In this document: one piece after another, positions 20,910-57,341 of the stretch
Numbering within the stretch: the stretch's first letter is position 1
How the letters are laid out: every line of letters starts with the position of its first letter
NCBI GenBank assembly: GCA_038049695.1
Contig: CP142461.1
Coordinates: 31,999,001 to 32,063,000, forward strand
Source: Cinnamomum chago
Taxonomy: Eukaryota > Streptophyta > Magnoliopsida > Laurales > Lauraceae
DNA: 64,000 nt
Direction: 5' to 3'
Position numbers and translations under genes: made by a program
The notes under the pieces: model-generated
The model's input: only the letters and a program-made list of their open reading frames with translations
The model's database searches: none
Told to the model about the DNA's origin: nothing

Positions 20910-21090
20910 GGGAAGGGCTCACCCAAGCTGCAGTTGTTAATTGTATCAGCTGGAGCGTGCGAGAGGCTCGTGTGGGCAAATGGGAAATGCAAATGAAATT
21001 TCGCTGGACCCCGCGCTTTTCCAGTTTGCCCTTTCATTCCCCCCCCCCCCCTTCCATCCAAGGTAGACCTAATCGAGGTCCAGCGAAATT

Positions 21091-21137
<47 letters not shown>

Positions 21138-21878: not shown

Positions 21879-23972
21879 TTGGAGAAGTTATTGACATGTG
21901 GGACCCATTTCTTTTACTTTGTAGGGATTCAGATTAATGTGTTGGAGTCGAAATGCTTAAGGTTGAAGGTTTGGATTTGGATTTGTTGATTTGCTGTTTG
22001 ATTTCACTAATTCCTCTTGAGGAAATTTAATTTAACTAATTACTGACTTGTGTATTCCATTTCTTTTGCTTTGTAGGGATTCAATGGTATTCAGGATGTT
22101 TCCTTTTTGAACCCGATGTAGATGTGGAGATCAATTTGGGAGATCAACTTTTGTTGTTTTATATGTATAAGGATGGATATGTAAATGGTTGAAATTTTTA
22201 ACAAACAGGGCCCTTAATGTTAGACTTGCAAATGCTTGGGATTTTGGTTTCAATGGTTAAAATTGTTTCAATGCTCTAGAGTTTTATCAGATTTGTTGAA
22301 TATATTGTCCTATTTATCCCACAGCAAATGGCTTGTTTGTGATTGTTAGCTTCTTTCTTAAAACTATGTATGATATTACATGTTTCATGTTTCATCCATC
22401 AAGGAAAATGATGGTCTCGATTAATGGATTGAACAGGGTAAACCATACTAGATGGAGCACGCTGCATAAATGGGCACCTTTCATTGGAATACTTGCATGG
22501 CACATTTAGAACATCAGCCAGTATACTCATATATTGTTAAAGTTTCGCATGGCACATTCTGTTAATGATTCACTCACCGCGGACATTTAGAACAGCAACC
22601 AATATTTTCTTGATATTCTCAAATGAAATGCCTCTGGATCTCATAAGGTTCATACTTAGACCCACATACCTGAATGAGACAACTTCATTCTTGATAACTG
22701 AATGAAATAACTTCAGTCCAAGTCCACTGAGATCATTATCTACATATGAATTGATCTCCAACATTTGAAGTGATTCTCAGTGGGAACAAATAGCTAATGA
22801 GGTACAATACTAAACCCGACTTGTTCAACTCAAACCAAACTTAAGCCAACTCATTTACACTATGAGGGGGAATCATACTCCTCATTGTTGATTTAACTCT
22901 ATTAGGTTGGATTAAGCCAGCAAAGGCAATGGGTACCCCTTAAATCTGAAGCTATGGATAGCATTCGGAGAAGCTTATGGAGCTTCAGAAAAATGGGTGG
23001 GTTTGGCAAATCTGAAGGTAATAATTGAAGCAATGTTTATATCTCAAAGTATGATGTGTGGTGGTTTCACATGTACACCACAAGCAGGCCTGCACTTATT
23101 TAAAGCAGGTTCGTCAATCGAACCACATCATCCTTCCAACGAAGCTAAAATTTATATTCAAATTTATTTAAAGTATTTTTTAAATGAAAATGCAATTCAA
23201 ATTATATAATTTATGTTATGGCTAGCACTGATCATGTGGCCTGTTACACCTGCCTTATTTTATTTTAAATGGTGATAATCAGGATGACCTTTCCACCTAA
23301 ACAAAAAAGAGAATAAAAGCCTGAGATAAAATAATCACACTGCATATTTTACTCCCACTGTTCAACTAATAACAAGTTCATCCACAACATTAACTCCACA
23401 TTCAACATTAATTCTGTTTGCATCCACAACATAGACAAGTCATCCCCCACACCATCCACAACATAGACAAATAGGTCATCCACCCAATTTCCATGGAGAT
23501 TTGTTGCCATTGCCTCAAAAATGGGTCGAACATGATGAAAACACTTAGTTGGAGGAGAAAATGACGATATTAGCCCAAGAGACATTGTTATAACTTATTA
23601 GATAATATTGCAGGTTGATCCAAACAAGACAGTCATCCCCCACACCATCCACAACATAGACAAACAGGTCCCATTCCACAGCTTCAACCCCATCACCTGC
23701 AAGTTTATGACCATCCACAAGAACAAAAAACATTATAAAAGGAAATATATGAAATCGTGCATGATGATTATTAAATCAATAAATAAAAACCAGTTACCAT
23801 TGACAAGCTATGACATCATCTCCAAGCTGGGCAGAGTTGAGATGATTGATGCTGAGCTGCACCCCTTGAAAGGCTGCTCATCAAAATTACAACTTTCCAC
23901 AATTACAATCCATTCTTCCATTTCATTTCACTCATCTTATTAAACTCAACTTACTCTGATAGGTTCCAAGAG

Positions 23973-24722
23973 AAAAAATTTCCCCTTGCAACAAACAAAA
24001 ACTAGAGAGAGAGGAGGGCAATTTGTTTTCATGTACCTGACAACATGATCTTTGGGTAACTTTTAGGCGGGCAGTAGCAGTGCATCATCTCAGATTTTGA
24101 TTTAGTTTCTAGATAGAAAAAAAAAACCCACAGATGGGTGAGATGAAAATAAAATCACACTACAAATCAAATGGGGAAGAAGGCATGTATGACTTTCTGT
24201 TTAAACATTTGGCAGAAATAATTGCTTACTAACATGTCTAGGTGAAGTTTTCTGACTCTTCTTCTTTCCACCAGTTACCTAATCATCTATCTCCCCTTCC
24301 AAAATCATCAAAAAATAAATTAGATTTGAAATGGTCGAAGTCACACATTTAGTCAAATACGTACATTAACATGAACAGTTTGACTGAACACCCTGAGCTG
24401 CAGTTTCAAGAACCGAAGATTGACTGAATTCTATTGTTCAGAAGACAACATGAACAAAAGACAAAAAAAACCCAAAAAATTACTTTGTTTTCTGTGGAAG
24501 AGTTGCGGGACCGTTGTAGACGAGACAGCGAGAAGCTCAAGACGAGAGAGGGAGAACCTTTTCTGGATCGATCAACAAGAGTCGCTGCAGCGGGAGAGAC
24601 GTCCATGAGAGAGACCCTTTTCTGGATCGATTGACGAGAGAGGGAGCGCATAAGAGAGAGAGAGATCGACGAGACAGGGAGAGCTGAGCAGCACCGAGAG
24701 AGTGAGCAGCAACTCATTTCTT

Positions 24723-24760
<38 letters not shown>

Positions 24761-24967
24761 CAGTGCAGATCTGCAGAGAGAGAGAGCTCCACGAAATTTC
24801 GCTGGACCTCGATTAGGTCTACCTTGGATGGAAGGGGGGTAATGAAAGGGCAAACTGGAAAAGCGCGGGGTCCGGCGAAATTTCATTTGCATTTTCCATT
24901 CGCCCACACGAGCCTCTCGCACGCTCCAGCTGATACAATTAACAACGGCAGCTTGGGTGAGCCCTTC

Positions 24968-24969
<2 letters not shown>
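23973..24969 (-). repeat. Right terminal inverted repeat of the MULE
   Basis: The right arm is the inverse of the left arm. Differences seen by eye are a shorter C-run, an extra copy-like block around 24590-24640 (the CTTTTCTGGATCGAT word occurs twice) and changed microsatellite length. Otherwise the two arms are collinear. Confidence 0.85.
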
Positions 24970-37713: not shown

Positions 37714-39690
37714 TCACCAGTAATCCGAGCAAGAGCACAACCCATTCTTAAAATGATGGAAACGACTTTGATCCCTTACTATTATTTCTCGATCATAGAT
37801 CTTGGAGATAAGCTTTGTTGCAGAATGACAGTCACTACAAACACGAAGATTCTTCATCACCCGTATTGGTGTTTTACAACTTGTCTTAATAAGCCCAAAG
37901 GCAATGGCCAGCTTTTCACTGTGACTTTCCTCAAATATTGATGCATTCGAGGCATTGATCCCGTAATGCTCTTGGCTCATCATTTTCTCCATCTCAGCCA
38001 CCATAGAACGAATCTCTTCACTTTCAGCATGAAAACTCTCTCTGCCCATCAGAAATTCATGAACCTCACCATCCACCTCTATCCAACTGCAACCAGCAAC
38101 CTTCTGCACCTTCAAATCATTCATCTGTCTCCTCAAATTACCTACATTCTCCCATCGCCCTGCATCAGCAAAAACATTAGATGCAATTGCATAAAACCCA
38201 CTATCTTGAGGACCAGACTCAAGTGCAACTTTTGATATATGCTCAGCCATTTCAACATTCTTGTGAATTCTACAAGCACCAAGTAATGTCTTCCATATAA
38301 CCGAATTAGGCTCCATTGGCATATTCTCTACTAGCTCTTTTGCCTCTTCCAAGTGTCCAGACCGGCCTAGAAGATCAACCATACATCCATAGTGACTAAT
38401 ATTTGGAGTTCGCTTATAAAAATTAGTGAGGAGGTCAAAGACAAGTCGACCCTCATCCACTAACCCTGCACGGCTGCAAGCATTTAGAACACCAACAAAT
38501 GTAATGTCATTAGGGCTTACTGAAGAATCTTCCTGCATTCTAGAGAAAAAACTGAGTGCATCCTCACCAAGACCATGAGCTGCAAGGCCTAATATAATTG
38601 AGTTCCAAGCAGATAACTCTTTGCACTTGAGACTTTCAAACACCCCAAGAGCTTCCTTTATGCACCCGCATTTTGAATACATATTGACAAGAGCTGAACC
38701 GAGAACGCCATCCACCTCTATCCTTTTCCTTTCAATGTAAGCATGAATCCATCTTCCCTGAGTGAGTGCGCCCAATTGAGCTACAGCTGAAAGAACACTC
38801 ACAAGCGTGACTTCATTTGGATCCACACCAGCAATTTGCATTTGCAAGAACATTTCCAAAGCCTCCTTAAATAAGCAATTCTGCGCATAACCCGAGATCA
38901 TAACTGTCCAAGCCACAACATTCTTCTCCGGCATTCCATCGAAAATCAGCCGAGCATCTTCCACGTGCCCACACCTCAAATACCCAGACATCAAAGAAGT
39001 CCACGAAAACAGATTTCTCTCCGGCATTTCATCAAACAGCTGCCGGGCAGCCTCTACCATCCCATTCTTTGCATACCCATCAACCATAATACTCCAAGAA
39101 ACCACATTCCTCTGCTCCATTCCATTGAAAACCAGACGGGCAGCCTCCACTTCCCCATTTCTCCAACACCCACTGATCAAATCATTCTGAGGAACGATAC
39201 CCGGGTCGGGACATTGATCCAACACTCTCAAAGCACCACCACAGTTGCCCGTTTTCGCATACATTCGAACAAGAGCCCTCTGAACAAAAACATCCCTACC
39301 CAACCCAAATTTAACTGCTTGTGCATGGATCTGCCTGCCTTCTTCAGCAGCGGGTAATCCACCACAGGCATTAATTAGGGAGGGGAAGGTTAGATGATCT
39401 GGGTTAAGAAAAGCACTATCGCTGAGAAGCTGATGGAACAACAGGAGGTAGTCGTGGGGGCTGTTGGATTGTGATTGTTGTTTGATTTGGGCATTCCAAT
39501 GGCTTTCTTTTGTGCTTTCTTTTGGGTTGGAAGGAGGAACTGAACAGGGTTTCATTGAAGAATCGTGGAATTGGTGAAGTTGAGTTGTGGGTTTGTAAGA
39601 GTGAGGTTTTTCTCTGGGATATGTTTTGGAAGTGTTTCTTCCATGGGAGGGAAGAAGAACTGCTGATAGTTGTGATGATGTAGTTAGCAT
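37714..39690 (-). CDS. PLS-class PPR protein with E and DYW domains (organelle RNA editing factor type)
   Basis: Intronless, 658 residues. PPR proteins of this class bind organellar RNA; the DYW domain is a cytidine deaminase used in C-to-U editing. Residues 1-40 are Ser/Thr/Lys-rich with few acids, compatible with an organellar transit peptide. Tandem P, L and S motifs run from about residue 100 to 490 (for example [20 protein letters not shown] and [20 protein letters not shown]), followed by the E region ([19 protein letters not shown]) and [13 protein letters not shown]. In the DYW domain the zinc and catalytic residues are present: HSE at 590-592, CSDCH with Cys618 and Cys621, and the terminal CSCSDYW (Cys652, Cys654). 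The linker between CSWIEV and HSEKLA looks shorter than usual, lacking the common GYVPDT and HDVEEEEKE stretch. The editing target cannot be told from sequence alone by eye. Confidence 0.93.
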
Positions 39691-40389
39691 GGTCAGTGAC
39701 AGACTGTTTACCGTTGCTTTTGCTGGAAGAGTTGGTTAGAAGTCGGAACTTAGAAATGCAATCCGTCTATATGGACAAACTCACTGGCCCCGTTTTGGGC
39801 CAGATCCGACGTCGAGGTCCATGTGGCGCTGACCTCAGCAGGAAGTGTTTTTCACTTTATCAAATGGGCGCCAGAATGAAAATAGAAAAGTGGGGAAACA
39901 GTCTGAGAAGGAGAAACAGAGGAAACCTGCAGACCTCTGGTTTTATCCCTTCCACAAATGATCCTCCCTCCTCATCGCCCGCCTGGATTGAATCTCCATC
40001 CCTCTCTCTAGCACGGCAGTCTCTCTCTCTCACTCTCTCTCTCTGCGACAGTAACCTGATAAGCGCATTCATGTTTCTCTTGGGACATCAAATGCAATTG
40101 GTCCTCAAAGGTCTTAGGATGTAAAAAAAAAAAAAATGACAACATTGTATATTCTGTCCCTTTCATTTTTTTTTTTTTTTTTTTATGATATGGATCTGTT
40201 GCAGGCATAGTATCTCTTTCAAAGTTATTACACTTATCACACGATAGTTCCACTCCACCCTTCATTTGCATTCATGACGATGAATGCAAACACCACTTCA
40301 ATCTTGGAATTATGAGATGAGTTTGATTTGTATTGTACTGTTTGAAGAAATAATCTTTCTCAATGCATTTTTCCCTTTTCCATTTGAAG
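39691..40389. other. Upstream region of the PPR gene
   Basis: The first 450 bases are less AT-rich than the surroundings, with a CT-rich run at 40003-40046, and are probably the promoter and leader of the PPR gene. Homopolymer runs of A and T follow (40123-40183). No gene is called. Confidence 0.4.
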
Positions 40390-40791
40390 TTTTGGGCATC
40401 TGTCCCAAAAGTTGATTTTTTTTTTTTTTTTTTTGTTACGGAGATGGGCTATTTGAGATGGGTTTGGTTACAGAGATTTAGAAAGTAGTTGGAAATTATT
40501 GTCATTGGTGAGTATCTCACAGTGAGTTTGGATTACAATTTGAAATTTCTTTTTGTTTAAGATGGAGATTAGCATTGGGTAAACTACCAAATCTCTCACC
40601 TTGATTATTCTTAGGCAATGCAAATATCTAAAGTGAGTGAGTGAGCAAACTGTGCTGTAAAAGTGGTTGAGTTCTGACCATGGAAGATTTCATAAGGTGG
40701 GCCCCACTGTGAGATTTACATGGTTGGATTGTGGATTCTGAAATCTGCAAAAAACTGTGGGCAGTTTTCAGTTGGTCAGTCTAGCACGATT
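40390..40791 (+). repeat. Direct repeat copy 1 (about 400 bp)
   Basis: This copy starts near CTGTCCCAAAAGTTG and ends at CTAGCACGATT. It is collinear with 41833-42232 with few differences: GAGATGGGCTATTTGAGATG, TTGGATTACAATTTGAAATT, GGTAAACTACCAAATCTCTC and GGTGGGCCCCACTGTGAGAT occur in both. It encodes nothing. Confidence 0.85.
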
Positions 40792-41190
40792 GGAAATTCG
40801 GTCCATATAGACTTTTTGTCCAACAATCCAACCAATTGTGCTCACTGTTTAGATTGTATCACAAATATATGAAAATGGAATATCAAAGCAATTCAATTTC
40901 CTCCATCTCATATTGTTGCGTTCCTCACTTGTTTTACAATTTATTTCTAGTTGTAAGTCATAAGGTCAGACATTAAATTCCATTTAGGCGATTCTCTCCT
41001 ACTCAAATTTTTAGGAACCATTTGGCCATTTCTAACTTTGGATCGCTGTAGCTCTGCGTAGAGTTTCGGACTAAAACTCTTTTAGCCAGCCCTGAATTCA
41101 AGAGAAAAGCTCGGCTGAATTGGCACCGGAGCTGAACCATTTATTTCTCAAGTAAAACCCGTCATATACACACACAATATATTTTGATTT

Positions 41191-41318
41191 ACGAGAGTAG
41201 GTTCGAAACTGCACTACCACACTGGATTATAGGGGAGTTTATCTGGCTTCCCTCTGGGCCCGGAGGAATTAGTCCAACCCAAAGGGTTGGGAACCCTCCG
41301 ATAGCAAGAAAAAAAAAA
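41191..41318 (+). mobile_element. Partial tRNA-derived SINE with poly(A) tail
   Basis: AGGTTCGAAACTGCACTACC is the B box plus the downstream word shared with the SINE at 1369-1477. The body ends in a run of ten A residues (41308-41318). The A-box half is missing or unrecognisable, so the copy is 5'-truncated. No target duplication was found. Confidence 0.6.
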
Positions 41319-41832
41319 CTATGGTTCTAATTTCTTTTTTTTTTTCCAGAGGTATAAATAGTCATGGTCTTTCAATCCGAAAGGTGTCCCTATGGCATTG
41401 TTCTATTCACTCACTTCCATATCTGTAAACCTTCAGGCTTATAAACACATAATGAGTCCCTCCATAATTCTGTGATTCAAATGTTTTAATCTAATGTGCC
41501 CATGCACTTCACCTCATTTCAAATAAAAACAGAGAGAAAGCACACCCAAAATTGCATCCTAATGTTGATATGCTCTACAAAACATTCTTAAGTCTTGACA
41601 TATCAGAGTTGCTGGTGATCACCAACCTAACCATACCTCTCCAGGATGACATATATGATTCCAAACCTTCATCTAAAACCATGGCTGTGTTTGCAGCATG
41701 GTTTAAAAGCTCAGAAACTTGACTTGGGTGAGAAAGCCTACTAGCATAAATAACCTAGGTAGAACATTCAGTCTGATTGGACCTGGCTCATTCTACTCAT
41801 CTGAATCGGTGACTCTCAAATTGGAGTTGATT

Positions 41833-42232
41833 TGGGCCGATCTGTCCCAAAAGTTGTAAGTTTTTTTTTTTTTGGTTGTTATGGAGATGGGCTATTTGAG
41901 ATGGGTTTGGCTACAGAGATTTAGAAAGTAGTTGGAAATTATTGTCATTGGTGAGTATCTCACAGTGAGTTTGGATTACAATTTGAAATTTCTTTCTGTT
42001 TAAGATAGAGATTAGCATTGGGTAAACTACCAAATCTCTCACCTTGATTATTCTTAGGCAATGCAAATATATAAAGTGAGTGAGCAAACTGTGCTGTAAA
42101 AGTGGTTTTGACTTTTGACCACGGAAGATTTCATAAGGTGGGCCCCACTGTGAGATTTACATGGCTGGGTTGTGGATTCTGAAATCTGCATAAAACTGTG
42201 GGTAGTTTTCCAATTGGCCAGTCCAGCACGAT
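41833..42232 (+). repeat. Direct repeat copy 2 (about 400 bp)
   Basis: Second copy of the 40390-40791 sequence, offset by about 1.44 kb. Copies diverge immediately after CAGCACGATT. The unit plus spacer may be a segmental tandem duplication or two copies of one nonautonomous element; the ends do not look like LTRs. Confidence 0.85.
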
Positions 42233-45108
42233 TTCCTCATCAAAATCTCATCAGATTGGTTGAATCATTGTTTTTAGTTTTTACTTGTTCATATTGGATA
42301 ACATTGAGGCCTAAAATGAAGGTAACTGTTCTGTTCTGGGTTTTCCTGGATTAATATTTATGTGTGTACTGAATTGAAGATTTGAGTTAATTTTGACAGT
42401 CCACAAAGCTTAGATTATATTGTTTTCCTTAGTGTACAAAGCGTAAATCATATTACAATTTGGAGGGCTAGCTCTCTAATGTTGGTCCATATCTCAATGA
42501 TCCTCTCTAAATCATGAGTTCTAGCTCTCTAATAGGCCATTTGGAGGGCTATGAATGATTTGGTTTGGCTCTCTCTCTCTCTCTCTCACATACTCTCTGT
42601 GGTTGGGTATGAATGATACGTAGGCTCAAGTTATGTTGCTAATGAAAAAGAATAAAAGGTGAATGCTCTAGCTTAGATTTACAAAATGATGCTTCATTTT
42701 TCTTAATACTTGCATTTCTTTTATCGAGTTATTCTAAACACATGAATATTTTGTTTGTTTTTTAGAAGCATGGAAGAAGATGGGTTATCACATGAATTTG
42801 ATCGAGACGTCAATGAAATTGAAATGGGGACGGTTTATCATGAATTAAATAGTGTTGAGATGGAGAAGACCTTGGAGGAAAGCGAACACTTAAAAGAGGT
42901 AGTAATGGAACCTCAGAGGGGAATGGTATTTGGTTCAATTGAAGAAGTACATGAATATTATGCAGGATATGCCAGGCAGATCGGATTTACTGTCGCCCAA
43001 CGAACCTCAAAAAGGGGATTGGATGGAAAAAAAGGTTTATTACAATTGGATGCACTAAGGGTAGAAAGCCAAACCCAAGTGCAAGCAACCTAATTAAACC
43101 CCGTCCACAATCAAGAACAAATTGCAAGGTAGCAGTAAATATTTATTTGCAATTCGATGGGAAGTGGCTTCTGAACTCATTTGTGCTTGAGCATAACCAT
43201 GATATGAGTCCGAATAAAGCTCGATATCACAAGAGTAATCGGGTAATCCCATCACACGTGAAGAGGCAGCTTGAATTGAATGAGAAAGCGGGAATTAGAT
43301 TGACAAGACTGTTAGCTCATGTGTGGTAGAGGTAGGGGGCATGGGAATCTGACATAGTTAGCAAAGGATGCAAGAAACTACGTGGATAAACTCAGACGCT
43401 TAGAACTCAAGGAAGGGGATGTTGAGGCAATGCTAAGCTATTTCAGAAAAATGCAACAAGACAATGGATCCTTTTTTTATGTCATGGATCTTGATTTAGA
43501 GCATCGAGTAAGGAACATCTTTTGGGCTGACGTGAGAAGTAGAGCAACATTCGCTGAGTTTTGTGGTGTGTCACATTTGACACCACTTATTTGGTTAATA
43601 AATATGATATGCCTTTCGCTCCTTTTGTGGGTGTGAATCACCATGGACATTCGGTGCTGTTAGGTTGTGGATTGATATCAAGAGAGGACACAGATACGTT
43701 TGTATGATTGTTTCAGTCTTGGCTTGATTGCATGTCTAGGCCTCCTCCTAATGCCATAATCACTGACCAGGATAAGGCCATGCAAAATGCAATAGGAATA
43801 GCATTTCCTAAAGCACGGCATCGGTGGTGTTTATGGCATATTTTGAAAAAGTTGCCTGAAAAATTGATGGGGTATAATGAATACGAATCAATTAAATTTC
43901 ATCTTTTAAATGTTGTATATGATTCAATGAAAAAAGAGGAGTTTGAAGAGAATTGGGCCAAGTTTGTTAGTGCATATCAGCTAGAAGACAACGATTGGCT
44001 TGCTGGATTGTACGATGAGAGGTCCCGATGGGTGCCAGCATTCGTGAAAGATATTTTTTGGGCAGGGATGTCAACAACCCAGCGTAGTGAGAGCATGCAT
44101 GCTTTTTTTGATGGCTACATCAATTCTAAGACCACATTGAAGCAGTTTGTTGAGCAATATGATAATGCTTTGTCTAAGAAGGTGCAACTAGAAGCTAAGG
44201 AAGATGCCCGTTGTTTCAATGTATACATTCCACGTGTGACCCCTTACGAGTTTGAGAGGCAATTTCAAGAAGCGTATACTCTTGCTAAATTTAAGGAGTT
44301 TCAGAATGAAATAGCAGGTAAGATCCGTTGCAATATTTCCTCAGTTAAGGTAGGAGTTGAGTTTTTTGAATATGATGTGGAGGAAGATGTGATAGTAGGA
44401 GAAGACAATATCAGACATTTTATTTTCTATGTTCATTTTGATGAGATATCAAGAGAAGCTAATTGCAGTTGCCGGTTGTTTGAGTTTAGAGGTATTCTCT
44501 GCAAGCATATCATCGTTGTTTATTTGAAGAAGAAAGTTTATCAAATACCGGGGAAATACATTTTAGAAAGGTGGAGTAAAAATGTGAGAAGAAACCACAC
44601 AAAAATCAAGAACAAGTATGACAATTGGGAGAGGAAGCCTGAAGGACGTCGTTACGACAAAAATGTTGACTATTTTCAATCGGGTCAGCGATAAGGCCAT
44701 GGATTCCGATGAAAAGAGTCAGATGGTAGTGTCCTCGTTGCTAGAAGTGGAAGCTGAGCTAGATGTTTCTAAAGAGGTTGTTGTATGCAATAGACCTATG
44801 TCTATAGGTGTACATAAAGCTTCAATATTATGTCATGATGATAATCTTTCTTGCCAAGAGAGCAATAATCGCGTGTGTGATCCAATCAAACGCCGCCAGA
44901 AGGGCCGACTGCCAGAAAAAAGAAGACAGTCTAAGATTGAGACAATGATAAGGAAGACTCGGAAAACAAGAAAAAAGATGACAAAGAAGGTTAGTCTAAA
45001 AGTTTTATTTTTGATATCAAATAAACACTTCATTCAATTACTCACAATCTAATTGATATCAACTTTGTACATGTGCAGGGTACGACGGTGGTAAATCAGG
45101 GAGATGAG

Positions 45109-48084
45109 TGTTAGACCCCGACCCAGACCAGTTCGATTAGTATGCGATTAATATGTGTTTAGTCTTAAGTGAGTTTAGTTGTGGTTGGGTTAGAAGTGAT
45201 TAGCTTTAGTCCTGGACATAGCTTTGGGAATTTTGAGAACGTTTAGTATTGGTTAGACACACTCAAGAAGGCTTGAGTGCACGTGTAAGCTTGGGAAGAT
45301 CGTATCGTTTTCCGTGTGAGTGTGGTTTTGATTTCATTTGAATGATCTTTTTATGTGTTACAACTTTCGTTTTAAGACCATTCCTGTTTGAAGCCCAAAA
45401 GCCCATGTTTTGGCCCAAGGAGGGTAAAATTGTCTTTCTTGCACAAATCTGGACACAATTTTCGAGATCTCAAAACCATGTCAAAAATATACTTTTTGGA
45501 AACTAGATATTTCGACGATCATTTTATCCTTCTTCGTCGAAGTCATCCGAGGCCCACAAGACCATGTTTTAGTCACTTCAAGTTCAAGCCAAATGGGGCC
45601 CATGAGTCATCACTTATTCCCCTTTCCCCTCCCTTTTCATTCATTTCCCAATCTCTGCAACTTTTGAGTCTAGGGCAAAAGAGAAAACCTCTTTTCTCCT
45701 TCATCTTCCTCACTTGGTTTGATCTAGCTAGAGAGCTCCAAAGGAAATTCTAAGACTACCATTTTCTTCATCTCCTTGCAAGCTCTCCATTGATACAAGT
45801 TTCTTGAGTTTTCAAGTTGGGCAAGAGCTCCTTTTTCTTCCCTCTCTCTTGTTTGACCTTCTCTAGGTAAGAGCTTCAACCCATATTTTTCATGGAGTCA
45901 TTTTAGTTCCTTAAGATCATGTTTTTCATGTTTTCAAACCCTATTTGGAAAATGGGTTCCTTGTTTCCATTTTGAGTGAGTTTTGTGTGTTTTCTTGTTT
46001 TTGCTTGTAGTGTGAGATTAGCTTGTGTGAAGAGCTTGGAGGAGAGTGTTTAGCATTTGGGCAAGACAAGTAATCTCTATAGGATCATGGTGCATGTTTA
46101 TTTTAAGCTACATTGTTGTTTGAGAAGTTTTGTACATGAATATGTTTACAAGTTTCATACTCATGATTTCCTTTGTGTTGGATGTTTAAAGTTTGGAAAA
46201 ATATATGTCTTGTCCCTTGGAGAGTATGTAGACTCAGGGAATATAAGTGGAATGAGAATGAAGGGAAGGGAAAAAGAGAATGTGAAAAATCTGTGCTGAA
46301 ACGCATTCCCGTGCACTGGCGGTCAGCACAGCGGTCAGCTCGCGGCTAGCCGCCTGTGCCCACTGCGGCTAACCGCAGGCTGACCGAACCCAGCGGTTCC
46401 TTTTCCAGAAGCTAGCATTTTCGCCTGGGTTCAGCGGTCAGCCCACGGCTAACCGCCAGTCCCACTTGCGGTTAACCGCAGGCCAACCGAGGATTTCGGT
46501 TCCTTTTCCAGAAGCTGACATTTCGACCATGTTTCACGGTCAGCTCCACGGTTAGCTAGCGGCTAGCCGCCTCATCCCATCACGGCTAACCGCTGGCCAA
46601 CCGCGCATGCGGTTCCTTTTCCCGAGAGCTAAACACAGAATTTCATTCCAGCGGTCAGCCTGGCGGTCACCTTGCGGCTAGCCGCCAGACCCCAGTTCGG
46701 CTAGCCGACACCTGACCGCGAGGTGACCGAATTTGACAAGTTTCCTATTTTGAAGAGTTTTGCAAGAAGGAAAAAACTAGAACATGTTAAGTGACCTCTA
46801 GCCTGATTTTGTGCACTCGAAACCCAAAATGTCTTTGAACTTCTGGGGCACCAATCCTTTCCTAAAATTCTACTGTTTGGGTCTCAATTGCACAAAGATA
46901 AATCAAAGGTCCTTGCTTGTGCTTGATAGGCCTTGTGTTCGTGCTTCGGTTTTTGATATGATGAATATCATCGTGAACTTGTTTTGAAGTGTTAGTACAA
47001 GCTTGTTTTGAAGTTTTGTTAAGAAAAAGGGGATCACTTCCTAAGCGTGTTTTGCATAAATATTATGCCTCGTGCTAGTCGTGCTCGTCGTGTTGTGATA
47101 AGTGATTTCCCCCTTTTTATCTCGACGTGTTTGATCGTGCTTCGCGTGTTTTGTGCATTCATGAATTAAGTAAACACCACTGAGCTTAGACTGCCCTTTC
47201 GGTTTGATCCACTGTCTGGGGGTCTTTAAACATGTGGACTGTCTGCAGACTGGTCGTGTATTTATTACACATCGTGCGTGTCCGGTTCCGCCGCCGGAAT
47301 TCCCGTCTTTGTGGGAAATCGTGTCGTGCTTATATTATGTATATCGTGCTTGTCGTGCGTGCTTGCTCTTTTCATTATATAAATGATAGAGAAAGGATGG
47401 GCTCTTTGTGGATTGTAACTTTTCATGATATATTCAGTACTCATGCTAGTTTGTTTTGATACCTCAGCTATTGTGACAGTTCAAATCAAGTATTCGATTT
47501 CAAGTGTTTTTCCAAAGTATTATTGTCATGTTCATGCCTATATTGATTACCTGCCAAACCGTCGTGTTTGACCCTTGCTTGTTGGTGCCCAGGTGCAGGA
47601 GACGTTGCCTTTGAGGCGGAGCGTCAGGAGGAGGCTTGTGAGCCAACTCCCGTGAGAGAGTGGCAGCCCGACGATGTCATCTAGATGTCGGTCTGGTTCT
47701 TGAGTTTCGTCACATTTTGTCTTAGGGTTCTTTTGTTTATGTTGGAGATGTGTATTGGCCTCTGTTGGCCTCTCTTGGGAATTGTAACAAAACTTAATTT
47801 ACTTTCTTGTTAGACTTGTAACTTGAACAATGTTGGGAATGCCATGTTAACTTATTCCTTTGATACTTTGTCTTGTATATTATTGTGATAGCACCTAAAT
47901 ATTTTACTGGTGCTTATCTAGTTGTGTTTTGCTACACGCTTCCGCAAATCGTGTACGTGTGAGCCAGATTCCGCTTGTCTTTGGGAATCCTCACCGCGGG
48001 AACCTGTGGGAAAACAATGGTCAAATAAGAATAATCACAATCAACACCGTCGCGGGGCCTGGGATCCGTTCCGGGGTCGCGACA
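45109..48084. mobile_element. Solo LTR, about 2.98 kb
   Basis: Fossil of an LTR retrotransposon. It begins TGTTAGACCCCGACC and ends GGGGTCGCGACA, standard TG...CA borders with a short inverted repeat (GACCCCG), and is flanked by a perfect 5-bp duplication, ATGAG (45104-45108 and 48085-48089). No gag-pol region is present, so it is a solo LTR left by recombination between two LTRs. Its length suggests a Ty3/gypsy lineage with very long LTRs, but family cannot be fixed here. It lies inside a 3' exon of the FAR1-like transposase gene, so it is younger than that gene copy. Confidence 0.82.
46310..46740. repeat. GC-rich palindromic tandem repeats inside the LTR
   Basis: About four units of roughly 105-115 bp. 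CGGTTCCTTTTCC recurs at about 46394, 46497 and 46610, and each unit has self-complementary words such as GCGGCTAGCCGC and GCGGTTAACCGC. The block is much richer in G and C than the DNA around it. Confidence 0.8.
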
Positions 48085-48482
48085 ATGAGATCATCAAGCA
48101 AGATTCTGTGAATTTAACCGTAAGAATGCCACCTATTTACTATATGCTATGCTTAACTTTATTGCATATGGCCTCATATACTTATTGGGGAAAATTTTCA
48201 TCCTGAACAGGGCTATCTTGTATCTCAACAGGGCGAATGAGAACACTGCATGTGATTGGTCACAGGGACAATCTTTTGTATAGACAAATTACAAATATAT
48301 GTTACTTAATCTTTTGTATATGAATGGAACTATCTTTCATATTCTATACAAAAGCGAGCTTCAGGTTAGTTCAATGGGTAATTGAATCTCAATTTGATAA
48401 GCATTATTTAAAAATGCAGTTCATACTTTCTTAGTAAACTTTTATTTTGCTTGAGATTAATTCAAGATATTTCGTGTTGCAG

Positions 48483-48975
48483 GACCAAGTTTTAGAAGAC
48501 AACCTTCTTCACAAGACGGATTTTTGGCACATGCTGTGCTATTTTGAGCTCCTTGTGACAGATTTTGTATAGACAACTTGCAGATATCTGTTAATTAATC
48601 TCTTGTATATGACTGGAACAATCTTTCAGATTGGATGTTATTAATGTAATTATTGTAAATTTGATCAATGTAAGTAGTGCTTCAACAGATTACTTGCCAA
48701 TCTAATTGGTCCCCTTTTGTATTCGATGCAAAATCTTGGTATTAGATGGCATATGCGAAGGTCTGACAAAGGAAATTCATAGGTTTCAATTCTGTGTAAT
48801 AAGGTTGGATGAAAGAAATATTGTGTTATTATTGTTTCATTCAGCAAACCCCTGTATTGGATATAAAATCTTCAGACTTCAAGATGGCAGGGCAATACTA
48901 TGGTTTGAATCTTTATATGTGTAGGTTCAACCCAGATTGAGAAGGTTTTATGAATAAAATATTGAGGTTTCAGGA
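48483..48975 (+). repeat. Left arm of a large inverted repeat (transposase 3' end)
   Basis: This arm starts with the last coding exon of the FAR1-like gene and runs through its 3' flank (CCAATCTAATTGG, TATTAGATGGCA, CAAGATGGCAGGGCAATAC). Its inverse is present at 51260-51765 with about 90% or higher identity by eye. Confidence 0.85.
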
Positions 48976-49429
48976 TGGTCATTAGGCAAAATCCACCCCT
49001 ATTCGATGTAAAATCTATTTATTAGATGGTATGCGTAGGTCTCACAAAACATATTCGCAGGTTTCAACTCTGTGTACTAAGGTTGGTTGAATGAAATACT
49101 GAGGTTTCACTATTTCGTTAGACTTGACCAACCTGTATTCGATATCAAACCTTGGGGATATGAGAAGGCCTAACAAAGAATATTCATAGGTTTTAAAACT
49201 GTATACTAAGGATATATGCAATAAATACTGAGGTTGAAGTGTCTCATTCAGCGTGGTTCATATACTATAGTTTGAATCGTTATATGCGTAGCTTCAACCC
49301 AGATATGAGAGGGTTTTATGAATAAAATATTGAGGTTTCAACGTGGTCATTGGGCAAAGTCCACCTCTATTGTATGTAAAATCTATTTATTAGATGGTAT
49401 GCGTAGGTCTCACAAAACATATTCGCAGG
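48960..49429 (-). repeat. Inverted monomers of the satellite-like repeat
   Basis: Four degenerate monomers occur in the orientation opposite to the main array, marked by AATATTGAGG or AATACTGAGG near 48955, 49093, 49212 and 49326. They join the left arm to the copied protease 3' end at 49430. Confidence 0.7.
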
Positions 49430-49535
49430 TTCTGAAACGATGATTTCCCTATTTTGGGATTTCAGAACTTCAGTCATTCAACCTTTTTTTGGATCGAATA
49501 CAACCTAGGCTCATTTGAGAATATTTTATATCAAC
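49430..49535 (+). repeat. Inverted copy of the Ulp1-like gene's 3' end
   Basis: TTCTGAAACGATGATTTCCC, TATTTTGGGATTTCAGAACT and GAATATTTTATATCAACT match the minus strand of 51790-51895, which contains the stop codon and 3' flank of the Ulp1-like gene. Here the segment lies on the opposite strand and is embedded in the repeat array. Confidence 0.85.
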
Positions 49536-49559
49536 TATTTCATAAGGACAAACTTCTCA

Positions 49560-51310
49560 CACTATAACATAATTCAAACCATCTGGACTTTCCCCTATGA
49601 ATATTCTTTGTCAGACCTTCTCATTCCCCAAGGTTTTAAATTGATTACAGGTTGGTGTAACGAAACAGTGAAACCTCAGTATTTCATTCAACCAACCTTA
49701 GTACACAGAGTTGAAACCTGCGAATATGTTTTATGAGACCTACGCATCCATCTAATAAATAGATTTTACATACAATAGAGGTGGACTTTGCCTAATGAAC
49801 AGCTGAAACCTCAGTATTTTATTCATAAAACCTTCTCATATCTGGGTTGAACCTACGCATATAAAGATTCAAACCATAGTATATGAACCACGCTGAATGA
49901 AACATTTCAACCTCAGTATTTATTGCATATATCATTAGTATACAATTTTAAAACCTATGAATATTCTTTGTCAGACCTTCTTATATCCCCAAGGTTTTAT
50001 ATCGAATACAGGTTGGTCAAGTCTAACGAAACACTAAAACCTCAGTATTTCATTCAACCAACCTTAGTATACGGAGCTAAAACCTGCGAATTTTTGTGAG
50101 ACATACGCATACCATCTAATAAATAGATTTTACATACAATAGAGGTGGACTTTGCCTAATGACCACGCTGAAACCTCAGTATTTTATTCATAAAACCTTC
50201 TCATATCTGGGTTGAACCTACGCATATAAAGATTCAAACCATAGTATATGAACCACGCTGAATGAAACACTTCAACCTCAGTATTTATTGCATATATCCT
50301 TAGTATACAGTTTTAAAACTTATGAATATTCTTTGTCAGACCTTCTCATATCCCCAAGGTTTTATATCGAATACAGGTTGGTCAAGTCTAATGAAATAGT
50401 GAAACCTCAGTATTTCATTCAACCAACCTTAGTACACAGAGTTGAAACCTGCGAATTGTTTTGTGAGACCTACGCATACCATCTAATAAATAGATTTTAC
50501 ATCGAATAGAGGTGGACTTTGCCTAATGACCACGCTGAAACCTCAGTATTTTATTCATAAAACCTTCTCAATCTGTGTTGAACCTACGCATATAAAGATT
50601 CAAACCATAGTATATGGACCACGCTGAATGAAACACTTCAGCCTCAGTATTTATTTTGCATATATCATTGGCATACAGTTTTAAAACCTATGAATATTCT
50701 TTGTCAGACCTTCTCATATCCCCAAGGTTATATCGAATACAGGTTGGTCAAGTCTAACGAAACACTGAAACCTCAGTATTTCATTCAACCAACCTTAGTA
50801 TACGAGCTGAAACCTGCGAATATGTTTTGTGAGACATACGTATACCATCTAATAAATAGATTTTACATACAATAGAGGTGGACTTTGCCTAATGACCACG
50901 CTGAAACCTCAGTATTTGATTCATAAAACATTCTCATATCTGGGTTGAACCTACGCATATAAAGATTCAAACCATAGTATATGAACCGCGCTGAATGAAA
51001 CACTTCAACCTCAGTATTTATTGCATATATCCTTAGTATACAGTTTTAAAACCTATGAATATTCTTTGTCAGACCTTCTCATATCCCCAAGGTTTTATAT
51101 CGAATATAGGTTGGTCAAGTCTAATGAAATAGTGAAACCTCAGTATTTCATTCAACCAACCTTAGTACACAGAGTTGAAACCTGCGAATTGTTTTGTGAG
51201 ACCTACGCATACCATCTAATAAATAGATTTTACATCGAATAGAGGTGGACTTTGCCTAATGACCACGCTGAAACCTCAGTATTTTATTCATAAAACCTTC
51301 TCAATCTGTG
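49560..51310 (+). repeat. Higher-order tandem repeat, 365-bp unit made of three monomers
   Basis: The word CCTCAGTATTT recurs 14 times, at about 49674, 49809, 49911, 50040, 50174, 50275, 50406, 50541, 50642, 50771, 50907, 51009, 51138 and 51274. The spacings follow a fixed cycle of about 135, 101 and 129 bp. Thus three related monomers form a 365-bp unit present in about four full copies that are nearly identical to each other, while monomers within a unit are only loosely similar. Several copies leave short frames open, but they have no recognisable product. Confidence 0.9.
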
Positions 51311-51765
51311 TTGAACCTACACATATAAAGATTCAAACCATTGTATTGCCCTGCCATCTTGAAGTCTGGAGATTTTATATCCAATACAGGGGTTTGCTAA
51401 ATGAAACAATAATAACACAATATTTCTTTCATCCAACCTTATTACACAGAATTGAAACCTGTGAATTTGTTTTGTTAGACCTTCGCATGTGCCATCTAAT
51501 ACCAAGATTAAATCGAATACAAAAGGGAACCAATTAGATTGGCAAGTAATTTGGTGAAGCACTACTTACATTGATCAAATTTACAATAATTACATTAATA
51601 ACATCCAATCTGAAAGATTGTTCCAGTCATATACAAGAGATTAATTAACAGATATCTACAAGTTGTCTATACAAAATCTGTCACAAGGAGCTCAAAATAG
51701 CACAACATGTGCCATAAATCCGTCTTGTGAAGAACCGTCTTCTAAAACTTGGTCCTGCATTGTAT
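51260..51765 (-). repeat. Right arm of the large inverted repeat
   Basis: Inverse of 48483-48975, including a copy of the last exon of the FAR1-like gene (51765 down to about 51675). It therefore places a second, oppositely oriented transposase 3' exon directly downstream of the Ulp1-like gene. Confidence 0.85.
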
Positions 51766-51886
51766 ATCAAGTGAGCTTAGAGAGTGTCTAGTTGATATAA
51801 AATATTCTCAAATGCGCCCCGTATTCAATCCGAAAAAAGGTTGAATGACTGAAGTTCTGAAATCCCAAAATAGGGACATCATCGTT

Positions 51887-54800
51887 TCAGAATCTCTTGA
51901 ACTCCCTCACATGAACACATATTTCTATACAAGAAATTCTGTACGCCACCTGCAATAAATATGAGATCAATGTTAGAAAACAAAAAAAAAATCACCGGAC
52001 AATAAAAATGTAAGAGAGTATTAATTTGATCACCAACACCATAAAGAAGAAATATTGATAAGACGATAGTTTTTATTTTTACCCGTTCCACAAGAAACTC
52101 TGCCAGGTCAGCCTTTGAGTCTTCATGTTTGTCATTCGATATTCGACCAAGCCATAAATGTGCTGCTATTTTTTTCCTATCATACCGGATTTCATCCTAT
52201 TCCAAGAACAAAGAAAAAGAAAGAAAAAAAGAAGAAATGAAAGAAACAGACAAAAAAATTAGAACAAGGAGAAGGAGTTGTATACGTAAATTTGCTTATA
52301 AAAAATCATAGTATTTACCGGCTGGAAATCAAATGTAACGCCACGCGATAGGCAGTCCATAAATTTCATCACGAAGATGCCACAATCATAACTGTTAAAA
52401 AAGGGGTATATAAGATGGATTGTTATACCAATTAGAATAGATACTGTATTTCTAATACGAGCCTCTAATAGAGAGACATACCCATTGTCTTGTTGAGGGC
52501 AGTCATCAACGAAATGAATATCATCCTTATCCCATTTATGAATCTTCCTTTGTACAAATTGTTCTTTTAAGAAAGATACCTGCATAATCTCCATATAACA
52601 GTTAAGTTTTATATACAAGTACATTATTTATTTCGAACATTTCACAGGAGCATATACCTTATTATGGGTACTCACCGTTTCATTCACGTATGTAACGTCA
52701 CCACAAGACTTCAAAGAGTTGTATATACAAAACAACTTCTTGTTTGAATCAAGTACAAGGAGAAGCCAGTGTTTTGAAGCCCAATTCATTGGGATAAATA
52801 TTCTGTCCCATGAGGTTAAGATGGACTTCAAATTCTTCACATTTAAATGCTTTTTAATTGATTCTTCATTGTTGGAATGTAATGCCATCTGGGAGTTAGT
52901 AAATTACATGTTAGCACTAATATTCAAAAATTAAAAATCTCTACAAATATTTGGAAGAATACTTACATTAAACCACTAAGTGAAGAAGTAACACTTCAAT
53001 GAAGCCAACTTCCCTGTTGGCTTTCTCCCACTCATCAACTTAGCATAGGTGTCAATAATTTAGAAGTGAAGATAGCATGTTCAGTGTTAGTTGTCAAGGT
53101 TCCAAATTGTATACTTGATTGAATGCTTATAATAAGATGTGAAATTAATTAACTACCAACCTTATCGGATATCCAACCTTCATCATCCAATGATTCTGAA
53201 CGCCAAATTTTTAGCTTGCCCACCTCCTCAGCACTAAAGAAAGAGAACTTATTATTTAGTAATTAATAAATATAAATACTAATTATCTAGTGTGAGTGCT
53301 ATGGTATAAAGTGACTAGGTTTATAATGGTTCATACTCTTTTCCAACTTTGGCTTCAAAACTTGCAATTGCGTCCTCCTCTTCTTCCGAAATGTCAATCT
53401 TTGATTGGATTTCATCCGCAATCAATCTCTCTCTCTTGTGGCAAGTTCCTTTATTCTTCGTTCTTTGCAAAGTTGCTTTTGTGCATGCATCGTATGGGGT
53501 CCGTAACATCTGCGATGGCTTCCGAACTCTAGCCCCATTTTTCTTTGAAATATTCTCGGCGGCTCTTGATGTATCAACACAACCAGACATTGACGGAATT
53601 GGAGAAGAAGGATGATCCATACGATGGAGTGAGGCATCCACAATATCCACGGGCGAGTGAGGCACCGAGATCCCTCTATTTCGCAACTCCATATTTTCAC
53701 TCCTTAATCGTTCATTCTCTTCCTCCAATATGGTAAACCTTAGCTCCAAATCCTTAATCTTCGTTATATAGTTCTCGCGATCACCCTATGTAAGTTTCAA
53801 ATAGTCAGTGAAAAATAGATTTAAAACATGAAGTTAATATTAAAGATTTTGAATAGCATTTTCCACTTTTAAACAAATGTGGCTAAAGTTACAATGATAT
53901 CCGGCATGCGTTCCTCCATTCTCCTGACTATGAAATCAGCCATCGCCGTTGTCTCCTGTAACCCATAATTAAAACAAGTATAAGTCACAAAAAGGATGCA
54001 ACCATACAACCATGACCAAGTACTTTAAATTAAAGAATAAAAATAAGTTAAAAAATACCTGAGACACTTTTGGGGGAGATAACAAGGTCATTTCTTCTTT
54101 AGTTGGAGTGATTTCCTCAATGACCTAAAAAATAGAGTATTCGTTTCATTTATTGTAGTCAATTTCATAAATTACTACAAGAAGTAAATCAAAGAGAAAA
54201 GTGAAGGTATACATACCTCTGCATAGCTAAGATTGTCCAATATAGCTTTAAAAGACTTACTTTGCATGTATTTCGAACTCTTAGCCCATCGCATATAACG
54301 TGGATAAGAATTTGCGTGAATAGGCTCATATTGGTTAACATGTTCATAAAACCAAGGCTGTAAGAAAAGGTATAAGAATGTAAGTGAAGATGTGAAAGTC
54401 ACAAGTTCTATTGTATTGTAATAATTATAAAAACCCTAATTAAAAAAGAAAAAAAGGATAACTACTTACTTCCAAGAGCATGACACATCCATTTATAAAT
54501 TCAGTTGTCTTCCTCGAGCTTTCGCGTATACTTTTTATCAAGAACTCATGTACAGCAATAGCCCATGCATAATCATTGACTTTTTCCAACTTATCAACCA
54601 TGAATATGATATTGAATGGAAATGACCGACATGATTTTTGAAAAAGAAGGGTACTACAAACGTACAACATATAAAGCTTCTTGAAATCAGCAATCGAATC
54701 CAACCTCTTCTTATCCAACGACTTCTTCTTGTTAGATGCAATCTTCTTCGAGATTACTTTTAAATGACTCTCTAATGTTTCCGTTCCTATATAGTTCTTT

Positions 54801-55123
54801 TCAAGATATTTCTCCAAAAACTCAAATTCTTCTGTCAAAACCCTTGTCTCTAATTGTATTCTTTCTCCACTCATATTCAACACCATTATCAGCGCGACAT
54901 CTTGAGGTAGAATTGGACGGAGCTTTCCTCCAAGTTGAAATGCACTTTTTTCATCATCCCACCTAGTTATTATCATTGACAAAAACGTACGCTGACATTT
55001 CAAGTTCGCAGGCATCTTTGTAAAGTGTTTAAAAGGTGTTTCTCGTATCGCATTAATATGAACCTCCTCTAGCTTTAAATCCTCAATGAACTTGATAAAC
55101 CTTGAAGGGCGGCATTTCGTATC
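51887..55123 (-). pseudogene. Ulp1-type SUMO protease (C48) gene of transposon-associated type, broken
   Basis: At least eleven exons can be followed by GT/AG borders: 55123-54470, 54357-54217, 54124-54059, 53955-53893, 53785-53337, 53233-53161, an ill-defined one near 53035-52970, 52888-52676, 52579-52482, 52391-52319, 52196-52083 and 51949-51887. The N-terminal part (LSMIITRWDDEKSAFQLGGK, LRPILPQDVALIMVLNMSGE) resembles the DUF1985/plant-mobile-domain region of transposon-linked Ulp1 genes. A coiled-coil-like stretch follows (LEEENERLRSENMELRNR). The C-terminal protease keeps its catalytic set: KHW (His), VLD (Asp), DCPQQ (Gln) and YDCGIFVMKF (Cys). Decay is visible: the conserved-looking TKCRPSRFIKFIEE at the start of the first exon is out of frame with what follows, and the exon near 53000 has an in-frame TAG (CYFFT then stop) and no good acceptor. 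It converges on the FAR1-like gene. Confidence 0.8.
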
Positions 55124-57287
55124 TAATTTTACAATTTCATTTGTATTTTAGTTGGCTTGTATCAAATTACAACAAAAGAAAAATAAAATAAAAACGAAAT
55201 TCAGATGAGAAGACACTAATGAATTGAAGTCATGTTCAGTGATTACCATGATTCAGTCTATACTCCCTCCCTCCCGTATTAAATCCAAGGAAACCTTAGC
55301 AGCCAACCCAATCAGTAGTACCAAAACAACCCAACTGGAAATGAACAAGAAAAAAAAATAAAAAATCAAAACCCAATCACCAAAAAAATCAAACAAGAAA
55401 ACATGAAACCAGCACCCCAAAACTTAAGTTTCAATTGATCCTTCAACTGACATCTGAATTTCAGTTTTCATGAAGATAAATCTTTTAACTACCATCCCAT
55501 TCTGAGTTTCTTGGCTAAACGAAAATTTATTCACTGGAAGCAGCACAACTTCCACTGGCTAGTGGTAACAAAATAGCACTTTCAAGTCGCTCTCACATTA
55601 ACACATCAAGTTAACATAAATCTAATAAAAATGGTTCAAACATAAGAATTTCTTGTCTATATATGTGCCACACTATGAAATCAAAATATCAAACATCCTT
55701 GGAGCTAACACAGTTTATATAAAATAAATTAAAAAAAATGAAGATGGTACTTAACAAATCAATATTTGTAAGATATATTCAGAACTGCTCTCATCTTTTC
55801 TCCTTCATGTCAAACAAGAATCCTCATATCACAGATTCCTCTATTGATAATTGTAACAAGAACAGTTTTTTGTGGTAATTTTATTCAGTTTAGCTATATA
55901 CCAAGGCTAGCCATTGCATGAAATGGACAACAATCAGATTCAGTGAATAAATTATCTATACAACAGATTCATGAAAACGTAAGTCATACAGATGTGTAAT
56001 GATTTTAGTGTGGGCAAAAAAATGCTATAGAACAAGCGATACTAATAAAAAAAAATGCTACAACTAACAAAAAATAGAACAAACTTATACCAAATTTGTA
56101 TGAAGGAACAGGTCAATTTAGTTATAATCAATCTACAGCAAAAAAAAGTTGGTCATTTTGGAATAAATTCCACAGCAATTTAGCTTCAGCATTTCCTAGC
56201 TTTGGATGTAACCTAATCACAAAAAGCCTGATGAGAAGATGGAGAAAAGCCTGACAACAAGAAGGAAGTCATCTAAATGATAAAAGAAAATAAAAAAAAA
56301 ATAAAAACTGAATTCAGAACCTTACAAAGGAAATGTTTGGATATTGTCAGGTTTTAAGTGCCTATCAAATAGAACATGACAGAGTCTGCAAACTGTACAC
56401 CCAGGTATTGGGCAAAATGTGTGTCATCTTAACGAAATCCTGAGATTGGCACTAGAGACTAATAGCATATTAATCGATTATGTTTTGACCAAGTCCTCAT
56501 ATCTTAGGTTTGTTGTATTTGAACTCGAAATATTTTTATTGCACTTAAAAGACTTGCAACTAAACTAAACAAGCATGAAACCTGATAGAGTAGATGATAT
56601 TTCAAACTGATACGGTGACGATTACTGCCACAACGAGTACAGGAATCCAACGAAATTAAACGAGCATTTGTGAAAAAAAAGGCTTTCAATTAAAGAAGCG
56701 AAACAGATCACATCGCAATCACGCTTTCAAATTCTAAAAACAAAAAACCACAAACAGATGGAAGGCCAAAGATCATATAAAACTTAACAAGGATTTTCTA
56801 GCCTTTATGTTGTAGAAAAAATTGCCCCTTTTCTGGATCGGGTCGGAGATGGGAGCGCAGGGCGGACCAGTCGAGAGATGGAGAGATGAGGAGAGAGGGT
56901 AGCACGTCAGGGATGCTTTCACCGCAGTTAGGAGATGTTCCCCTTTTTGCGCGTGCAGACGAGAGAGGGAGAGGGGAGACGAAGGACGCGCGAGAGGGGA
57001 GGGAGAGCTTAGAAGGAGAGAGGAGATGACGTCGGGATGGGTGAGGCAGGCACCGTCGCGCGAGAGGGAGAGAGGCGAGAGAGGGAGAGGCATAATGGGA
57101 GAGGCAAGAGAGCGATGGGGCTTCAACAGTAGTCTAGGGCATTCCCATTTTTCTTCTCAACAACGTATTCCTCTGGCGGGCTTTGAAAATTTCGGGCGGG
57201 CTTTCTAAACATTTGGTCCAACTCACCCTCCAGCTAGGATCGGGTTGGAATTCGGGCAAGCAAGTCGGGCCACATAGACTTTTTGCT
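55124..57287. other. Upstream region of the Ulp1-like gene
   Basis: AT-rich sequence to about 56800, then a purine-rich, GC-richer block (56815-57125) with GAGAGAGGGAGAGG-type words. That block shares CCCTTTTCTGGATCG with the right arm of the MULE at 20910-24969, hinting at a related leader sequence. A terminal inverted repeat for a larger element was sought here and at 40-42.7 kb, but none was found. Confidence 0.4.
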
Positions 57288-57341
57288 TAGAAATGATTTC
57301 AAATAAAGGGTACCTAGAAATGATTTCAAATAAAGGGTACC
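57288..57341. repeat. 27-bp tandem duplication
   Basis: TAGAAATGATTTCAAATAAA plus GGGTACC is present twice without a gap and without mismatches. Confidence 0.9.

Follow-up and report, generated by a model that had tools for sequence, protein, structure and literature searches.

Two genes face each other in a 64,000-nt stretch of the genome of Cinnamomum chago (contig CP142461.1, positions 31,999,001 to 32,063,000; hereafter the window, with positions counted from its first base). One encodes a FAR1-type transposase of a Mutator-like element (MULE) and lies on the plus strand, and the other encodes an Ulp1-type (C48) protease and lies on the minus strand. The locus raises the question of whether both genes belong to one large two-gene mobile element family, as a reading of the letters alone had proposed (the original prediction). 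Domain matches confirmed the identity of both genes (FAR1, MULE and SWIM for the first; spliced C48, E value 2.7e-26, for the second), and their convergent order at the window was confirmed as well. Both genes were enclosed by one pair of ends with 9-10-bp target site duplications at many sites in the genome, as expected for a single element family.

The genome (about 1.06 Gb, 14 contigs) was searched at the DNA level, and 40 of 101 FAR1 and 40 of 80 Ulp1 candidates were scored, so that the counts are lower bounds. The places used were 40 for FAR1 (3 of 43 rows dropped) and 39 for Ulp1 (6 of 45 dropped); the dropped rows were all second pieces of loci that were in the list already. At least 17 FAR1/Ulp1 pairs lay within 25 kb of each other, against about 0.07 pairs expected by chance, and all 17 were convergent, as the original prediction had anticipated for other loci of this genome. 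A protein search added one convergent pair, recognised by eye (C1:30030690 on the plus strand with C1:30038149-30039753 on the minus strand). Ten pair loci were fetched besides the window, and four of the 17 were not fetched.

As delimited by the ends common across loci, the element in the window is larger than the interval 42770-55123 originally proposed, which covers the gene part:

39759-57285, no strand: the entire MULE, 17,527 bp long, holding both genes and a solo long terminal repeat (LTR) that inserted later; ends common across loci and a perfect 10-bp duplication
39749-39758, no strand: left copy of the target site duplication, CTTAGAAATG, a perfect 10-bp match
57286-57295, no strand: right copy of the target site duplication, CTTAGAAATG, a perfect 10-bp match
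39759-39778, plus strand: left terminal repeat, CAATCCGTCTATATGGACAA, matching the opposite end at 13 of 20 bases
57266-57285, minus strand: right terminal repeat, ending CCACATAGACTTTTTG, placed by end comparison

Exact duplications, 10 bp long in the window and of 9 bp at the other sites, surrounded both genes at 8 of 11 loci including the window, and these eight elements were 12.4-17.5 kb long. The duplication at C3b, TTTTTTTAT, is of low complexity. Within the fetched DNA, no right end was recognised at C5b and no left end at C3c; at C7 the ends were present and the duplication was not found. Two further pair loci on C9, for which the ends alone were determined (20,762 and 20,342 bp), had one exact duplication, ATCTAAATA, and one match at 7 of 9 bases. 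Of the 13 pair loci at which ends were sought, nine thus had exact 9-10-bp duplications enclosing both genes, and the shared outer ends with 8-11-bp duplications that the original prediction had proposed to look for are present. The termini of the two-gene loci were mostly CA....GTCTATATGG on the left and CCATATAGAC....TG on the right; C6 starts with AA, and the right end of both the window copy and C5c is CCACATAGAC. The 20-bp ends agreed at 13-19 of 20 bases in eight loci, two of which had long terminal inverted repeats (TIRs; 86/100 and 91/100). Both the target duplications of 8-11 bp and the inverted termini by which MULEs are recognised were therefore found.

A copy of the right-hand terminus also lies inside the left part of the window element, at 40799-40818, and adjoins a 400-bp direct repeat (93%; 40391-40791 and 41831-42233). 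The left end may stem from a short relative, either nested or recombined.

Transposase and protease genes are separable modules, because each also occurs unpaired and one element, flanked by a duplication of its own, carries FAR1 alone. Grouped by identity to the window, 12 of 13 FAR1 copies were paired in the clade of at least 95%, 5 of 12 at 90-94% and none of 15 at 88-89%, and 22 of the 39 Ulp1 places were unpaired; all pairing figures are lower bounds, and an unpaired place is not proof of absence. Two of the 15 loci of the 88-89% group, when read further, gave no PMD (plant mobile domain) or C48 match at 1e-4 in 16-17 kb; one of the two is a FAR1-only element, complete at 10,621 bp and flanked by an exact 9-bp duplication. 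Conversely, no FAR1 match was found in the 17 kb fetched around the divergent Ulp1 locus U90_C11. It is flanked by different inverted repeats (79%) and by a 10-bp direct repeat which, as the best of many positions tried, is no more than suggestive. The occurrence of each gene alone, named at the outset as a sign against the proposal, is thus partly real and leaves the two-gene element standing. Between subfamilies, the FAR1 coding part was 90-92% identical, compared with 95-98% for the protease gene with its introns; this difference in divergence between the halves is most simply read as an exchange of element halves between subfamilies.

The two C9 elements whose ends were determined (C9:10598279-10619040 and C9:38044398-38064739) bear on the age of the family. 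They are two-gene elements of about 20 kb whose right-hand 2.9 kb is 99.86% identical and whose flanks differ, and neither has a stop in its 570-residue transposase match. Near-identical right-hand parts at different sites and a stop-free transposase match indicate recent movement and the existence of better-kept copies.

The window copy is a decayed insertion beside a pentatricopeptide repeat (PPR) gene, with a later solo LTR inside. The transposase part comprises:

42770-45108, plus strand: FAR1-MULE-SWIM transposase gene with frameshifts and stops; it continues past the LTR, homology to other copies resuming at 48085-48087
45109-48084, no strand: solo LTR (TGTTAG...GCGACA), 2,976 bp, with TG..CA ends and the 5-bp duplication ATGAG

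The broken window frames at 42955-44694 (plus strand) matched the FAR1 DNA-binding domain (3.6e-09), the MULE transposase (4e-14) and SWIM (8.8e-09). The better-kept C7 copy (L028:311-2020:-) has an unbroken stretch of 570 residues with matches to MULE (5.2e-36) and, at the N-terminus as in the Jittery/FAR1 clade, to the FAR1 DNA-binding domain (7.7e-16). The DDE residues D272, D334 and E442 (L028 frame) were readable in all 13 aligned copies, 12 of which contain stops. Codon-position divergence between the subfamilies of about 96% and about 91% was 0.075, 0.053 and 0.147, a clear signature of purifying selection on the transposase between them. The solo LTR is missing at the corresponding place in nine of the ten other fetched copies, and the tenth (C7) does not have the stretch; the LTR is a later insertion nested in the transposase gene. 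It holds several GC-rich repeats of about 100 bp with CGGCTAACCG-like motifs.

The second gene was modelled by eye with 11 coding exons, of which those carrying recognisable features are listed:

52116-55135, minus strand: PMD/coiled-coil/Ulp1-like (C48) gene, 11 coding exons; exon phases fit and the 5' start is not settled
54470-55135, minus strand: exon E1, most of the PMD, from domain match and exon model
54217-54357, minus strand: exon E2, end of the PMD match, from exon model and domain match
53337-53785, minus strand: exon E5, coiled coil, from weak zipper matches and heptads seen by eye
52967-53059, minus strand: exon E7, with the acceptor AG changed to AA in the window and an in-frame stop
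52676-52888, minus strand: exon E8, with the catalytic His and with Asn at the place of the catalytic Asp, from alignment
52482-52579, minus strand: exon E9, conserved Gln, from alignment
52319-52391, minus strand: exon E10, catalytic Cys (YDCG), from alignment
52116-52196, minus strand: exon E11, coding as far as the site of a stop that the window copy has lost

The PMD was matched by its exon alone (1.4e-09) and by the spliced protein (9.6e-17), which also matched Peptidase_C48 (2.7e-26). DUF1985 gave a weak match on one exon (0.057) and was not listed up to E 1 for the spliced protein. By these matches the N-terminal domain is a PMD and not DUF1985, so that the predicted coiled-coil plus DUF1985/PMD-like protease is retained in its PMD form. 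The comparison of the model covered 12 further copies, including two partial ones. Exon borders were mostly AG and GT across copies, with single copies deviating at several exons. The E7 acceptor was AG in all 11 other copies that hold the stretch, the E11 stop was in frame in 8 of the 12 copies having that exon, and the PMD exon was open, without stops, in several copies.

The C48 part aligned with yeast Ulp1 (7.2e-13). Of the residues that we take to be catalytic in this alignment, the window copy keeps His, Gln and Cys and has Asn at the position of the Asp. The same Asn was present in all 11 copies with the residue in frame; the position is out of frame in C3c through a 25-base deletion, and the exon was not found in U83_C8. 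The complete His-Asp-Gln-Cys set of a SUMO protease is accordingly not present.

Between the two genes lies a palindrome with a tandem array:

48478-49431, plus strand: left arm of the central palindrome (3' flank of the transposase gene, and array), 95% inverted match to 50811-51759
50811-51759, minus strand: right arm (3' flank of the protease gene), 95% inverted match to 48478-49431
51789-51892, minus strand: protease-side flank block, inverted copy at 49430-49537, 91%
49594-51346, plus strand: tandem array, 367-bp unit repeated 4.8 times; three units were counted, each with CCTCAGTATTT three times, all on one strand

The inverted copies noted earlier near the 3' ends of the genes are present (95% and 91%); they are non-coding 3' flanks and not the gene ends themselves. 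Among the 11 loci, both arms were found in six (the window, C3a, C3b, C11a, C5a and C6), the left arm alone in C9a, C3c and C5c, the right arm alone in C5b, and neither in C7. The palindrome was rejected as a pair of element ends, as outer ends with duplications enclose it and both arms occur in part of the copies. CCTCAGTATTT occurs 14 times on one strand in 1.8 kb of the right arm and twice on the matching strand in the left arm, and it was absent from the 46 kb of the window outside the element. The related count for CTCAGTATT showed the motif in 10 of 11 loci, in varying number and orientation. The 21-base pattern GAAACCTCAGTATTTNATTCA had 316 occurrences in the genome, compared with none for the reversed control.

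Elsewhere in the genome, 16 of the 40 scored places of the protease-side flank form eight facing pairs spaced 2.4-5.0 kb apart. The pair that was read, on C1 (L042/L043, C1:120680200-120687300), is a palindrome with two facing protease-side flanks and the motif array. In the left arm, the outward order is right-end sequence, last C48 residues, array, the outer part of the right arm lying outside the fetched DNA. Of the protease, C48 residues 129-155 alone were found at 1e-3 in the 7.1 kb. By its content, the C1 palindrome is a gene-poor derivative that keeps the array. An independently inserted central module had been considered, since at several lone places homology seemed to begin at a single base. 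It was rejected after the same C1 locus showed that the apparent start is a small deletion and that the arm, followed outward, leads on to the 3' end of the protease and, beyond it, to sequence known from the right end of other copies.

Four of 11 loci, C6 (L019/L020), C9a (L021/L022), C3c (L023/L024) and C5c (L025/L026), have a right-end-like sequence, TCTTCTGTATAGACAAATTG, close by the transposase gene on its 3' side. These matches, with two substitutions at the limit of tolerance, were rejected as insertion ends. In all four loci they are followed by the same internal bases, which agree with none of the left flanks (for C3c a left end to compare is lacking). A shared element end between the genes, which was to count against a common element, is therefore not what these matches represent. 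The internal TCTTCTGTATAGACAAATTG may represent either the remnant of an older end or a site to which the transposase binds.

MuDR of maize has two convergent genes, 9-bp duplications and long TIRs. The present family shares the convergent layout and the 9-bp duplications; it differs in that mudrB is not a C48 protease and in that its TIRs are mostly short and heterogeneous. Its second gene is PMD-C48 and not a mudrB homologue (no mudrB model was searched by name), and the proposed mudrB position of the protease is an analogy in layout and nothing beyond it.

Some Jittery-like families of grapevine carry Ulp1-like protease (ULP) sequences downstream of the transposase (PMC2528002); Jitvine-1 (11.9 kb) and Jitvine-2 (14.4 kb) are Jittery-like families of that species, and the text does not name which families have ULP. 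Melon Jittery-like MULEs with ULP were described by van Leeuwen 2007, as cited in PMC2528002. The grapevine and melon elements share with the present one a FAR1/Jittery-type transposase, a downstream Ulp1-like sequence and a similar length. Compared by description, they come with no mention of a PMD-coiled-coil part or of a motif array in the available text. The combination of a FAR1-clade MULE with a ULP gene, which the original prediction did not know as a described one, is already known, and the element described here is a new member. No PMD-coiled-coil-C48 gene in a FAR1-type MULE was found in the literature searched, which is weak evidence because most subscription papers and Repbase lay outside its coverage. 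Less expected are the PMD-coiled-coil make-up, the Asn at the catalytic Asp position in every readable copy, the apparently swapped halves and the dense one-strand array. Beyond the elements known in grape and melon, the present genome offers many copies whose exact ends are readable. Plant DNA transposons have acquired Ulp1-like genes repeatedly, and PMC2528002 describes this as a special 'affinity'.

In KI-MULEs the ULP gene is in reverse orientation (PMC2528002). In these KAONASHI (KI) MULEs and in the KIU-carrying VANDALs of Arabidopsis a C48 gene is reverse to the transposase, an arrangement found here; they differ in having non-TIR ends and a transposase of the mudrA type. A KIU protein is a VANC that carries an Ulp1 domain (PMC13317346). 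VANC proteins bind short motifs in non-coding tandem repeats (PMC5735166); in Arabidopsis these are arrayed on one strand, and silencing is removed (PMC5735166, PMC10398659). The present element also has a non-coding tandem array, whereas its protein has a PMD in place of the DUF1985/DUF287 of VANC; anti-silencing is proposed here by analogy. The VANC21 motif YAGTATTAY had no match in the array, and the shared AGTATT core was not counted as evidence. For PMDs captured by MULEs, an anti-silencing use is the speculation of the authors of PMC5418596. Those elements have a PMD in a MULE in common with ours; there PMD-C is fused to the transposase, and here PMD and C48 share a separate convergent gene.

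Taken together, the family is very probably a large MULE of the FAR1 (Jittery-like) clade that moves by cut and paste and carries two convergent genes. The FAR1-type transposase would bind the ends and move the DNA, as its domain, the ends and the duplications suggest. The PMD-C48 protein, acting like VANC/KIU, would bind the central array and strip silencing marks from array-bearing copies, with SUMO or another ubiquitin-like tag as the target of its C48 part. The array would serve as a platform in cis, kept by at least one palindromic derivative without most of the protease coding sequence. Taken by itself, a sequence-specific anti-silencing factor of the VANC/KIU kind working through the array is a tentative proposal, possible and short of probable; it is favoured because the array has the form expected from VANC-bound repeats. 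A wider version is rather doubtful: FAR1-clade MULEs would have evolved their own anti-silencing system, convergent with VANC/KIU, in which a His-Asn-Cys PMD-coiled-coil-C48 protein recognises the one-strand CCTCAGTATTT array and frees array-bearing copies including gene-poor palindromes, with array and protein travelling as an exchangeable half-element. Were the array the target, anti-silencing would have arisen in another MULE clade as well, through a protein whose N-terminal domain differs. Two-gene elements, a FAR1-only element, an Ulp1-only locus, palindromic derivatives that carry the array and halves that appear to have been exchanged all occur in this one genome, and the roles of protease and array can therefore be tested on these natural combinations by comparing methylation and mobility.

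Several observations weigh against these roles of the second gene. The DUF1985 of VANC is replaced by PMD, and Asn in place of the catalytic Asp makes proteolysis by the predicted C48 protein uncertain. C3b, a two-gene copy with an exact duplication, has no CTCAGTATT motif. Tandem units share words by descent, so that motif density alone is weak proof. Selection on the protease-like gene appears weak. Codon-position divergence of the PMD was 0.076/0.066/0.064 from U90_C11 and 0.150/0.132/0.158 from U83_C8, without visible selection, and that of C48 was 0.054/0.077/0.113 from the 90% copy, where selection is weak. The whole gene compared with the 83% copy gave 0.155/0.146/0.178, with 0.140 for introns. 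Nei-Gojobori ratios of nonsynonymous to synonymous substitution (dN/dS) were about 0.4-0.6 for most pairs and at least 1, up to 1.8, for the closest pairs. The frame-0 value of 0.54 was slightly below shifted-frame controls of 0.77 and 0.63, figures that come from part of the output. After these controls dN/dS was dropped as a convincing sign of selection, and codon-position divergences were used instead.

The alternative that fares best makes the protease gene a passenger, captured a single time from the host or from a transposon by transduplication as in Pack-MULEs and copied with an element that has no use for it. Most copies of both genes are decayed, the PMD shows no visible selection, and the FAR1-only element of the same family has its 9-bp duplication without it. 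Against a passenger speak the 11 coding exons with mostly conserved splice sites, the PMD exon open in several copies, the C48 third positions that diverge faster than first positions, and the pairing with 12 of 13 FAR1 copies of the clade of at least 95%. We regard this alternative as possible, if somewhat unlikely.

A direct, mudrB-like aid to the transposase is a less probable explanation, and we think it improbable. The C48 protein would remove SUMO from the transposase or stabilise it at integration and would have no part in silencing. The retained His, Gln and Cys and the convergent two-gene layout, as in MuDR, agree with such a function, whereas the FAR1-only relative with its own duplication exists without a C48 gene, and the array is left unexplained. 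Two unrelated neighbouring elements or a chance juxtaposition, to which the unpaired genes, the different inverted repeats at the Ulp1-only locus and the right-end-like matches between the genes might point, are refuted as an explanation by the shared outer ends and are extremely improbable, as the nine end pairs with exact duplications enclose both genes, the pairs far exceed the chance expectation and are all convergent, and the internal matches run into identical internal sequence with no duplication.

Two further features of the window were recorded beside the two-gene MULE. An open PPR-DYW gene lies at 37714-39735 on the minus strand (PPR 1.8e-56, DYW 1.3e-34), and its first in-frame ATG is 69 bp from the left end of the element. 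A second MULE-like insertion, at 20910-24969, has inverted arms of about 1 kb with 87.5% identity, starting GGGAAGGGCTCACCC. Its 9-bp duplication, TATAAATAT, lies in a TA-rich stretch and was picked among many TA-repeat alternatives, this placement being chosen because the ends then mirror each other.

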